In this document: positions 59,659 to 64,000 of the stretch, in pieces
Layout: each line of letters starts with the position of its first letter
Position numbering within the stretch: position 1 is the stretch's first letter
Assembly (NCBI RefSeq): GCF_029643245.1
Contig: NZ_CP116398.1
Coordinates: 2,542,001 to 2,606,000 of the forward strand
Reading direction: 5' to 3'
Source: Methylomonas sp. EFPC3
GTDB lineage: Bacteria; Pseudomonadota; Gammaproteobacteria; Methylococcales; Methylomonadaceae
Length of the DNA stretch: 64,000 bases
The notes under the pieces: model-generated
What the model saw: the letters and a program-made list of their open reading frames with translations, nothing else
Told to the model about the DNA's origin: nothing
The model's database searches: none
Translations under genes and position numbers: made by a program

Positions 59659-60747
59659 CTAACGCAGAATTCTGAACAGCCCCCGCGTCGCTACCGCCAT
59701 AACCAGCAGAGCCGGCCCGGCAAACCCCAGCAACCCCGTCAATGCGGTTTGACTGGCGCTGGCGTCCCAAAGCGTCAGCGAACTGTTTAACGATATATTG
59801 GACGGCGCCAGAAACGGGAACATTGATACGCCTAAGGTCAGCACTGCCAGGGCCAGCGCCACCGCCAGCGCTAACAACGCCCAATACGCCCGATCGAACT
59901 TACACAGCACCCAGGCGCCGATGCCGGCGAGGAAAGCCAGACCGGGGATCACCCACAACGCCGGCTCGTGTTCGTAATTATCCAGCCACAAGCCGTCGCC
60001 GCGCTTGACGAATTTGGCCAACGGATTGGAAACGCCGTCCGGCAGGATTTCGGTAGTGACGTGGTAGCCTTCCAAATGGGTAATCCAACCGCCACACAAA
60101 GCAAATAACAATAAAAACAGAATTACCGTAGTTTGCGCCACCGCTTTTGCGCGTAACTGTAACTCAGGATCGCCGTGCAATTGCAAATAGACTGCTGCGT
60201 AAGCGGCCAACAACGCCAGACAACAGGCCGCAACCAACATTGCAAACGGGTTGAACAGGCCGGCCAGACTACCCAAAAAAGCGATATGCATGTCGCTGCT
60301 CAGATGAAACGGAAAACCCTTCAACAAATTTCCCGCCAGCAGGCCCAACACGACGACGGGCAACAATCCACTGAGAAATAGCGCCTTATCCCAATACGGC
60401 AGCCAATCCGGATGCTCGAGGCTATTTCTAAAGTAAAGACCGATCGGCCTGATACAGACGGCCAGTATCACGCACAACAGCAAATTCTGGAAGCTGGAAA
60501 ACACCACGGCATAGACCGTGGGCCAGCCCGCATACAACACCGCGATCACTGCAGCCAGCCAGGCTTGATTTCCCGCGCTGAGCGGCGCCAGTCTGGCAGC
60601 GATCTGCCGCCGTTGGGGTTCGGACAACTGCAAAAACGGCAACAACAGCGCCACGCCCATTTCCAGACCGCTACTCAACGCAAAACCGACCGTAAATAAA
60701 CCGAGCAGCCCCCAGCACAACAAGCGCAAAATATCGTAATCAAGCAT
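59659..60747 (-). CDS. cydB: Cytochrome bd-like oxidase subunit II (divergent CydB)
   Basis: A 362-residue, about nine-helix protein that aligns along its length with E. coli CydB (MLDYDILRLLCWGLLGLFTVGFA; GNLLKGFPFHLS; MFPFLAPSNISLNSSLTLWDASASQTAL). The acidic residues of the N-terminal part are changed: the DGFDMG motif reads SSGLEMG (Asp25 to Ser, Asp29 to Glu) and WDGNQ reads SAGNQ (Asp58 to Ala). Numbers are E. coli positions recalled from memory. Those Asps belong to the proposed proton path. It overlaps the subunit I gene by 8 bases. Confidence 0.85.
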   Translation of the reverse strand: MLDYDILRLLCWGLLGLFTVGFALSSGLEMGVALLLPFLQLSEPQRRQIAARLAPLSAGNQAWLAAVIAVLYAGWPTVYAVVFSSFQNLLLCVILAVCIRPIGLYFRNSLEHPDWLPYWDKALFLSGLLPVVVLGLLAGNLLKGFPFHLSSDMHIAFLGSLAGLFNPFAMLVAACCLALLAAYAAVYLQLHGDPELQLRAKAVAQTTVILFLLLFALCGGWITHLEGYHVTTEILPDGVSNPLAKFVKRGDGLWLDNYEHEPALWVIPGLAFLAGIGAWVLCKFDRAYWALLALAVALALAVLTLGVSMFPFLAPSNISLNSSLTLWDASASQTALTGLLGFAGPALLVMAVATRGLFRILR

Positions 60748-62134
60748 CGCCGCCCTCCTGAGCTGACGCCGCTCCCTGTTTTATCAATTGCATCGCCAGC
60801 AGAATCGCCAGGGCCAGTAACCCGGAATACGCTAAGGCGTAAACAGCCAAACCGAGTACCAAGTCGCTAGTCGTTAAAGTCGATACCGCCAACCATGTCG
60901 GCAAAATGTCGACCACAATCCAAGGCTGGTCGCCGAATTCGGAGATGAACCAACCGCCAACGCTGGCCAACCAAGTAGCAGGCAATGCGTACATTGCCGA
61001 CTTCAGCACCCACGGCTGCCGGCTGCCGGTCACGACACCGAAACCGGCTGTCAAAAACGTCACTAGTGCCAACACACCGAACACGATCATGGCCTTATGC
61101 CCCCAATACAGGGGCGCTGCCGGCGGCAAACTGGCTTGCGCCGCCTGCTCAATTTGCGTCGGACTAGCATCGACCACACCGTCTCTCCAACGTTTCAGCA
61201 ACAATCCGTAACCAAGATCGGCTTTAGCGGCACCGAATTCCTCCCACAATTGCGCTTGCGGGTTATCGTCGCGCAATTGTTGCAACATGGCGTAAGCGCG
61301 GACACCGTTTTCGATTCGTTGCCGGTTTTGCGCCAGAATGTCGTCGGCAGGCAGGCCGTTAATTGCCATCAGCTTGCCGCGCTGAAACGAACTTTGTTTG
61401 TAAATGCCGGCGTCTCCCAACAACAAGGTAGCAACAATCGCCAGCAAGCCCAGCCCCACAGCAATGGAATACGACGGCCCGGACAACCCCGTTTCGGCCG
61501 ACCTTAGCCGGTAATAGGCGCTGATAGCCAACACGAACCCGGCTGCCAACGCATAGCTGGAAAGCAAGCTATGGGCGAATTTGGCCAGCGCCACCGGATT
61601 GCATAACACGGCACGCCAATCTGCCATGTCCATCCGCAACGCCTGTACGTCGAATTCGGCACCGACCGGATATTGCATCCAGCCGCTGGCGACCGAAAAA
61701 CCAAACAATATCAAATGGCAGCCCAAGCACACCGCCAGGGTAGCGAGAAGATGCGGAAAGCCCCCCAACCTGTCCCAGCCGTACAACATCCAGCCCAAAG
61801 CGTTCGCCGCCGTAAACAAGCCTGCCAAAACTCCGACCAGCACCGGCCCGGCAAAGGCATCGCCGGCATAGTGAGCAAAATACGACCAATTGCCACCGAA
61901 TTGGAACAGCATGGCCACACTCGACGCTAGACTCAATCCGAAACTGAGTGCGAACAACTTGCCCCAAAACCGGCATAAGGTTTGGTAATCGCCCCTGCCG
62001 CCAGCCAGCCCCCAAGTTTCCAATACCAGTAAGAAAAACGATAAGCCTACCGTCAGCGGTACAAATAGAAAATGCTGTACTGCATTGATCGCAAACTGCG
62101 AGCGAGACAATTCAATAACCGTTTCGGAAACCAT
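60740..62134 (-). CDS. cydA: Cytochrome bd-like oxidase subunit I (divergent CydA)
   Basis: A 464-residue CydA homologue, shorter than E. coli CydA (522). Heme-ligand positions appear kept: His in AVQHFLFVPLTVG (His19), His in KFAHSLLSSY (His186), Met in HKAMIVFG (Met393) and Glu in GWFISEFG (Glu445). Functional residues are lost: Glu99 and Glu107 (VLVGVLAGLFTAAN), Glu257 (KLMAIN instead of KLAAIE), Arg391 (Lys here) and the GRQPW Arg (GDQPW). The Q-loop is also short. E. coli numbering is from memory. It is probably not an ordinary quinol oxidase. Confidence 0.85.
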   Translation of the reverse strand: MVSETVIELSRSQFAINAVQHFLFVPLTVGLSFFLLVLETWGLAGGRGDYQTLCRFWGKLFALSFGLSLASSVAMLFQFGGNWSYFAHYAGDAFAGPVLVGVLAGLFTAANALGWMLYGWDRLGGFPHLLATLAVCLGCHLILFGFSVASGWMQYPVGAEFDVQALRMDMADWRAVLCNPVALAKFAHSLLSSYALAAGFVLAISAYYRLRSAETGLSGPSYSIAVGLGLLAIVATLLLGDAGIYKQSSFQRGKLMAINGLPADDILAQNRQRIENGVRAYAMLQQLRDDNPQAQLWEEFGAAKADLGYGLLLKRWRDGVVDASPTQIEQAAQASLPPAAPLYWGHKAMIVFGVLALVTFLTAGFGVVTGSRQPWVLKSAMYALPATWLASVGGWFISEFGDQPWIVVDILPTWLAVSTLTTSDLVLGLAVYALAYSGLLALAILLAMQLIKQGAASAQEGGDA

Positions 62135-62297
62135 TCCTACCTCTAGGCCAAGCTCAAAATGGCGGCAATTATAAAATTATCCGCCCGTTTGTCTGCGTTT
62201 TTCTCGATCAAGTCGCATTATATCGGCCGCCAGACCATGGAGAATAAGCGGCACTGATATACACTTTGATGGACTACGGCCGCGTTTACGACACTCC

Positions 62298-64000
62298 ATG
62301 AAGCTCCCGCCCCGCTGGATAATCGGACTGAAAATCATTGGCTTGGCGCTACTTTACGCCGGCTTGGCCAAGCTGGTATTGGCTTTTTTTTCCGACCGCG
62401 GAAACGTCACACTGATCTGGTTTCCGGCTGGCCTGGGTCTGGCCGCATTTTTGTTGAATGCCAAACATTATTGGGCCGGCGTACTGTCAGGCGCTTTCAT
62501 CGCGGGTTTGTTGGTCGGCGACTCGTGGACAATCTCGGCCTTTATTGCGGCCGGCAACACTCTGGAATCGTGGATCGGCGCTTGGCTCCTGCTTGGCAAC
62601 CCCGGTTTTTCGATCAAACTGCGCCACCCGAGCGACTTCGCGTGGCTGGCCGTCACCGGCGCGGTTGCCGCCTGTTTCAGTGCGCTGATCGGGCCGATGG
62701 CGTTGTTGCTGGGCGGTTACCTGACTCAAGACCAGTTGTTTCCGAGCATGCTGCATTGGTGGATGGCCGATTTGTTTGGTATCGCTTTAGTAACCCCTTG
62801 CATTCTGATTTGGCGAAAATGGCCAACTGGCTGGTTCGTCGTCAAACGTCTGCCGGAAACTGCGACCTTCTTGGCGCTGAGTTTTTTCAGCGGCCAAGCG
62901 ATATTTCTGGGTTGGTGTCCGGATGTAATCAGCGGTTACGCCCGCGGGTATTGGACTTTTCTGTTTGTGGTTTGGGCGGCGGCTCGCTTCGGACGCCACG
63001 GCGTGATGCTCCTGATTGGCATAACCGCGATCCAGTCTCTGTGGGGATTGGAGCGCCAGTGCGGCCTGTTTGCCTCCGGCGATTTGCAAGCCGGTCTGCT
63101 GAATATTTGGCTCTATTTACTGGTCCTGGCCTGTGTCGGCATTCCGTTGGCGTTAATGCTTTACGACCGCGAGCAAAAAGCCCAAGCACTGCAAGAAAGC
63201 GAAAACCGCCTGAGCTTTGCGTTGCAAACCATAGACACCGGCGCCTGGGATCTCGACCTTGAAACAGAAACCGTGATGCGCACTCCGATCCACGACCGGA
63301 TTTTCGGCTACGACGACCTGTTACCGGTCTGGACTTACCAAACCTTTCTCGGTCACGTCGTATCGACATACCGGGACACCGTCGACCAAGACTTCCGCCA
63401 CGCCCGCCGCGACCGCAGCAATTGGAATTTCGAATGCAAAATTCGCCGATTGGATGGCGAAATTCGCTGGATTCGCGGTTCCGGTCGCCACCATAGCCTA
63501 TACCCAAGAATGACGGGGATCATCCAGGACATCACGCTTCAAAAACTTGCCGACGAAAACCGCCAATTGGCCATGCTTTTCTACCAGAATTGCAACGAGG
63601 GGATGATGATTACCGAAGTGGATGCGACGATTGTTTCGGTCAATCCGGCTTTCAGCGAGATTACAGGCTACGAAGCGGCAGACGTCATTGGTAAAAACGC
63701 CAGTATTCTCGGTTCCGGCCGCCACGATTCCGGATTCTTTCAGGACATGTGGCAAACCATCAACAGCCTGGGCCAGTGGCACGGGGAAATTTGGAACCGT
63801 CGTAAAAACGGCGAACTATACGTCGAACAACTCAGCATCAATACCGTTTTCGATGCCAACGGCTTGCCGCTACGCCGCATCGGCCTATTTTTCGACGTAA
63901 CCCAACGCAAACTTAACGAAGAACAATTACGCAAACAAGCCTACTTCGATCCTTTGACCGGTATCGGCAACCGCCGCATGTTTTACGACCGATTGGACCA
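62298..64000 (+). CDS. MASE1-PAS-GGDEF signalling protein (cut by window edge)
   Basis: The frame is open from ATG 62298 to the window end, at least 567 residues. About eight membrane helices (residues ~8-275) show the MASE1 pattern (VTLIWFPAGLGLAAFLLNAKHYWAGVLSG). A first PAS domain covers about 295-415 (FALQTIDTGAWDLDLETE). A second covers about 425-540 (EGMMITEVDATIVSVNPAFSEITGYEAADVIGKN, followed by a PAC). The start of a GGDEF domain follows (YFDPLTGIGNRRMFYDRLD). It is probably a diguanylate cyclase; an EAL domain further on cannot be excluded. Confidence 0.88.
   Translation, partial: MKLPPRWIIGLKIIGLALLYAGLAKLVLAFFSDRGNVTLIWFPAGLGLAAFLLNAKHYWAGVLSGAFIAGLLVGDSWTISAFIAAGNTLESWIGAWLLLGNPGFSIKLRHPSDFAWLAVTGAVAACFSALIGPMALLLGGYLTQDQLFPSMLHWWMADLFGIALVTPCILIWRKWPTGWFVVKRLPETATFLALSFFSGQAIFLGWCPDVISGYARGYWTFLFVVWAAARFGRHGVMLLIGITAIQSLWGLERQCGLFASGDLQAGLLNIWLYLLVLACVGIPLALMLYDREQKAQALQESENRLSFALQTIDTGAWDLDLETETVMRTPIHDRIFGYDDLLPVWTYQTFLGHVVSTYRDTVDQDFRHARRDRSNWNFECKIRRLDGEIRWIRGSGRHHSLYPRMTGIIQDITLQKLADENRQLAMLFYQNCNEGMMITEVDATIVSVNPAFSEITGYEAADVIGKNASILGSGRHDSGFFQDMWQTINSLGQWHGEIWNRRKNGELYVEQLSINTVFDANGLPLRRIGLFFDVTQRKLNEEQLRKQAYFDPLTGIGNRRMFYDRLD

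Follow-up and report, generated by a model that had tools for sequence, protein, structure and literature searches.

Methylomonas sp. EFPC3, a gammaproteobacterial methanotroph, carries a cydAB-like gene pair in addition to a canonical cytochrome bd operon, and the question raised by this locus is whether the pair encodes a second quinol:O2 oxidase or a protein with another function. The pair lies in the 64-kb stretch of DNA analysed here (the window; G000:C1:2542001-2606000), which is part of a complete genome of 4.44 Mb and in which no Rfam matches or tRNAs were found. The CydA-like gene (bp 60740 to 62134, minus strand, 464 aa) and the CydB-like gene (bp 59659 to 60747, minus strand, 362 aa) overlap by 8 nt. 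Both subunits were assigned to cytochrome bd by Pfam and by a PDB sequence search, and the CydB-like subunit by NCBIfam as well: the CydA-like protein scored 307 bits with PF01654, a PF02322 match of 192 bits supplied the other superfamily domain, and the CydB-like protein scored 264 bits with TIGR00203 (cut-off 117.3). As the initial annotation had it, the two proteins match E. coli bd-I CydA (6rko_A, 366 bits) and CydB (254 bits) end to end. An AlphaFold model of the CydA-like subunit (pLDDT 78.8, pTM 0.81) gave a TM-score of 0.85 to E. coli bd-I CydA (6rx4_A). A protein identical to this subunit is present in Methylomonas koyamae SM2.

The Q-loop had been described as short, which is true of one half only. 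QN, the quinol-binding and quinol-oxidising part, is cut from 52 residues in E. coli to 6 in the window CydA, but QC, the part needed for assembly (PMC8324918), has the same 77 residues as in E. coli, placing the protein in the long-Q-loop class. What is left of QN is the string GLPADD (residues 260 to 265; bp 61340 to 61357, minus strand), located between Qh1 and the intact QC half. Qh1 reads KLMAIN, with K252 kept and E257 replaced by N; the qOR1 quinol site is thus without QN and E257, and has K252 and Y243. R298 of that site sits in QN (PMC13189123), and both R298 and QN are missing in all 35 members of the paralog clade described below, with QC intact in the members measured. The cyanide-insensitive short-Q-loop enzymes (CIO) also have a smaller total Q-loop, but they lack the long QC and keep E99, E107, E257 and R448, unlike the window pair; membership of that class was rejected on the length of QC.

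Alignment to E. coli K-12 CydA (NP_415261; residue numbers are those of E. coli) gave the substitutions E74L, E99G, E107A, E257N, R391K and R448D, confirming the reported absence of E99, E107, E257, R391 and the arginine of GRQPW, while H19, H186, M393, E445, K252, D239, Y243 and W441 were retained. R391K is conservative; the tree shows at least 11 changes at R391, and only three species have R448D. It had also been claimed that the heme ligands were kept. H19, H186, M393 and E445 are indeed present, but E99, now G, is itself reported as a heme-binding or heme-d axial residue (PMC9498996, PMC6853902, PMC8324918), so the claim is only partly true and the full qOR1 heme-binding set is not found. 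E. coli mutants in E99 or E74 lose heme d (PMC6853902).

In the CydB-like subunit the expected D58A and D29E were found, but the supposed loss of Asp25 concerns T25/D26 of E. coli, and since canonical enzymes may have D, E or G at position 26, it carries no weight. D105Y, K109S and loss of Y379 were found in addition. The E. coli H-channel has been traced as K53-K57-D105(B)-D58(B)-E107-E74, with E107 proposed as the terminal proton donor (PMC13189123), and another structure gave the alternative route D119-K57-K109(B)-D105(B)-Y379(B)-D58(B) (PMC6853902). The window pair has E107A, E74L, D58A(B) and D105Y(B) in the H-channel; K57 and D119 are still present, though most of either published wire is gone. 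E74L, D105Y, K109S and the loss of Y379, which make up the rest of the proton wire, had not been listed earlier, and neither had the absence of CydX. No CydX-like ORF was found in the 101-bp gap after the window cydB, so that this qOR1 feature is missing too; the canonical operon of the same genome has such an ORF after cydB. Compared with E. coli bd-I (CydAB-X), the window pair shares the fold, the two-subunit operon, the QC loop and H19, H186, M393, E445, K252 and W441, but lacks or has replaced the QN lid, E74, E99, E107, E257, R448, D58, D105, K109 and Y379 of CydB, and CydX.

A divergent CydA paralog of this type is present in 36 of 37 Methylomonas genomes, at 33-85% identity. It was found at E <= 1e-116 in 34 of the 37; the 35th genome (G019) has a still more divergent copy, the 36th (G029) has fragments only, and in G033, an incomplete genome, the paralog was not found. 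Relatives occur in two genomes of one other, neighbouring genus; at the threshold used for the Methylomonas paralogs, no match came from the remaining genera of the family or from a sampling of the class. In the CydA tree, 35 divergent sequences fall on one side of a single branch (support 96/85), some of them on long branches, and this clade groups with Methylococcales canonical and E. coli-type CydA in a reference set that leaves out OR-N. Protein distances of the divergent CydA were a median of 13 times those of canonical CydA in the same genome pairs. By its place in this tree, the window pair is a member of one genus-wide CydAB paralog clade.

Heme-binding residues are replaced repeatedly within the clade: H19 in 11 of the 35 members, E99 in 16, M393 in 6, E445 in 6 and H186 in 4. 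All five are kept in 11 members, and H19, H186, M393 and E445 together in 17, leaving 18 in which at least one of these four is gone; the window's sub-clade has lost E99. E74 was lost in 35/35 members, and E107 and E257 in 34/35 each. D58 and D105 of CydB were replaced in all 33 divergent CydB (CydB') sequences aligned; among canonical CydB, position 58 is D or E and position 105 is D in 26 of 27. The initial view that every functional patch had changed except the heme ligands is not supported, either for E99 in the window or for H19, M393, E445 and H186 across the clade. One copy from a single-contig genome (L164) is without H186, M393 and E445, yet its predicted structure is again a bd fold, with TM-scores of 0.80-0.83 against E. 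coli CydA; its models were built from shallow alignments that include ligand-keeping relatives, and indicate fold compatibility rather than proof. Fold and operon appear, from sequences and models, to persist while relatives lose ligands.

The reading that we prefer, at a probability of about 60%, is that the pair is a selected pseudo-oxidase with a bd fold, heme-poor to heme-less, and not a quinol:O2 oxidase. The residue losses, the single clade, the purifying selection and the persistence without a canonical oxidase can be read from the sequences themselves. On this reading, a Methylomonas-wide paralog of long-Q-loop (E. coli bd-I, qOR1) CydAB would have been converted into a pseudo-oxidase that retains the bd fold, the pairing of CydA with CydB and the half of the Q-loop needed for assembly, and that drops the quinol lid, the cytoplasmic proton wire and CydX, as well as the heme-d residue E99 in the window's sub-clade. 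The window copy would still bind low-spin heme b558 (H186/M393) and perhaps b595 (H19/E445), would have little or no functional heme d, and would not turn over quinol and O2; its selected function, probably not respiration, would be structural or signalling. Some heme chemistry is plausible in this copy, which keeps H19, H186, M393, E445, K252, W441, D239 and Y243.

The replacements of E99 and E107 could be compensated, and a buried motif may be relevant here. The string CLGCH (residues 136 to 140; bp 61715 to 61729, minus strand) lies midway along predicted TM helix 4, which spans residues 125-154 in the AlphaFold model. Its GCH part is invariant in 15/15 members of the window's sub-clade, coinciding with the loss of E99, and the full CxxCH is present in 6/15. 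Tentatively, and at somewhat less than even odds, the pair can be viewed as an ex-oxidase bd complex with a new selected function, its heme sites eroding stepwise from full to none within the genus; the window copy would then be an intermediate in which E99 was replaced and a buried TM4 Cys-His gained, possibly as a remodelled heme or ligand site.

The pair might instead be a still-active altered oxidase that scavenges O2 or NO non-electrogenically with electrons from another donor. The four heme residues kept in the window, the 11 members that keep all five, the purifying selection, and the retention of the pair in a genome (G027) that lost its canonical bd would all suit such an enzyme. We consider it unlikely, since E99 is lost in the window's sub-clade, E74, E107, D58 and QN are lost clade-wide, one or more of H19, H186, M393 and E445 is gone in about half of the members, and no conserved electron-donor protein was found encoded beside the divergent pair. 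The loss of E99, E74, E107 and D58 weakens the O2 or NO scavenger reading, and ligand losses in intact, selected proteins across the clade make an enzyme with another donor unlikely as the shared function. The original suggestion of selection for a different enzyme thus finds support in so far as the pair is not decaying (dN/dS about 0.1) and is probably no standard quinol oxidase, a canonical cydAB being present at another locus; it finds none as regards another donor, and the pair may yet be a sensor.

A search for a canonical cydAB elsewhere in the genome, as had been proposed, located one at G000:C1:3884637-3887793 (cydA 579 bits, with cydB). It belongs to the same superfamily and Q-loop class, with about 40% CydA identity to the window copy, but keeps every tested catalytic residue, has CydX, and evolves about 13 times more slowly than the window pair. 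Judging from gene content, respiration in this genome can rely on this canonical bd and on the products of three heme-copper oxidase genes. Both copies occur in most Methylomonas genomes, dimers of canonical bd are known (PMC13189123), and catalytically dead paralogs are often regulators of active ones (PMC5106787), so that the divergent pair could be pictured as a regulatory or structural partner of canonical CydAB in a pseudoenzyme-type heterocomplex. This is very unlikely in view of the genomes that keep the divergent copy on its own. In G027, a complete genome, the canonical cydAB has been deleted in place with its flanking genes intact (L197, G027:C1:874000-884000), leaving only the last 73 residues of CydA (447-519) and the first 129 of CydB (1-129), and the divergent pair is intact; in G020, G177 and G210 the divergent copy is kept and no other CydA is encoded. 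An obligate partnership is weakened by all four.

Still less tenable, in spite of the 13-fold protein divergence and the loss of catalytic residues piece by piece, is the view that the pair is a redundant copy that decays slowly and serves no selected function. In close pairs dN/dS was mostly 0.07-0.17 for the divergent CydA (CydA') and mostly 0.06-0.16 for CydB', at unsaturated dS, and it was 0.08-0.10 in the window trio, whose ORFs are intact; a very close pair (L017-L018) gave 0.2 on few changes. Pairs already without H19 gave 0.12-0.17, and those without M393 and E445 gave 0.074. Canonical CydA had a dN/dS of 0.04-0.08 in unsaturated pairs, and the neighbouring DUF502, phoR, phoB and dapC genes mostly 0.01-0.08 at similar dS. 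Values of about 0.07-0.17 mean that the pair is not decaying, and with the copy kept in 36/37 genomes and the operon structure conserved, slow decay is largely refuted; a pseudogene reading was rejected on the same values and the intact ORFs. Purifying selection is acting here on proteins that can no longer hold the usual heme set in the usual manner.

The bd superfamily also has non-quinol branches, OR-N (CydAA') and OR-C (heme c), whose members are described as having no quinol sites (PMC10839748, PMC12342949) and of which the CLGCH string is reminiscent. It is highly implausible that the pair belongs to either, as the partner is a true CydB by its TIGR00203 match, the best match is E. coli bd-I, QC is long, the clade groups with Methylococcales canonical CydA (in a tree without OR-N sequences), and CLGCH lies in the middle of the membrane and differs even among close relatives. 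Heme c attachment through CLGCH was rejected as the likely case on the latter grounds, and OR-N CydAA' identity on the partner. OR-N CydAA' of Nitrospirota, Nitrospinota and archaea is similarly bd-like and proposed to be non-quinol, but it pairs CydA with CydA', whereas the CydA of the window is partnered by a true CydB and groups with bd-I. M. smegmatis AppC is likewise a second CydA-like protein in one genome, but its heme, proton and quinol residues are reportedly retained (PMC9498996), unlike those of the window CydA.

For the preferred pseudo-oxidase, the gene neighbourhood hints at a role as a membrane redox- or gas-responsive module or a scaffold, which we regard as possible but doubtful. 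In the window's sub-clade the module may be tied to a MASE1-PAS-GGDEF protein, the gene for which is a conserved neighbour there and is transcribed divergently from cydA'. In the window this gene (bp 62298 to 63998, plus strand) encodes a MASE1-PAS sensor and runs off the end, with GGDEF seen in full-length relatives. The intergenic region between it and cydA' (bp 62135 to 62297, 163 nt) has one promoter-like site on the minus strand (bp 62168 to 62195), the total number of sites there being not above chance, and no Pho box was found in it; no FNR box was found either. In most members phoBR lies upstream of the pair, with gaps of 100-300 nt or other genes between; with no Pho box, a phosphate link was set aside and phoBR treated as context only. 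Several members from the other sub-clade (L041, L043, L044, L046, L047, L051 and L164) have a phosphoketolase (xfp) gene downstream of cydA'B' on the same strand.

No earlier description of Methylomonas bd paralogs was found in the literature searched, a key superfamily paper being outside that search. In studies of methanotrophs the presence of bd serves to indicate low-oxygen respiration (e.g. PMC11218250), and a cydAB annotation means an oxidase by default; counting a genus-wide selected copy that has neither quinol lid nor proton wire as another high-affinity oxidase would be an error. The clade also offers a natural series in which catalytic parts are removed singly with the fold kept, which could help to tell structural from catalytic residues.

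Several features of the canonical operons were also observed. In those of Methylomonas, cydA and cydB are often separated by a further ORF of about 170-200 aa (L033:7463-8056, L176:4094-4639), in which no Pfam match and no CxxCH was found. In the window's genome a multicopper oxidase gene lies upstream of the canonical operon, and downstream of it lies a formaldehyde-activating-enzyme-like gene. Canonical CydA of Methylomonas (L001, L171-L180) is separate on the tree from that of Methylobacter and other Methylococcales (L061-L112), a grouping that may reflect horizontal replacement, the place of the CIO outgroup being unsure. In a methanotroph MAG (L061:8001-14565), two cydAB pairs with canonical residues lie close together on one strand, and, of the sequences on the canonical side of the tree, the second of these is the closest to the divergent clade.
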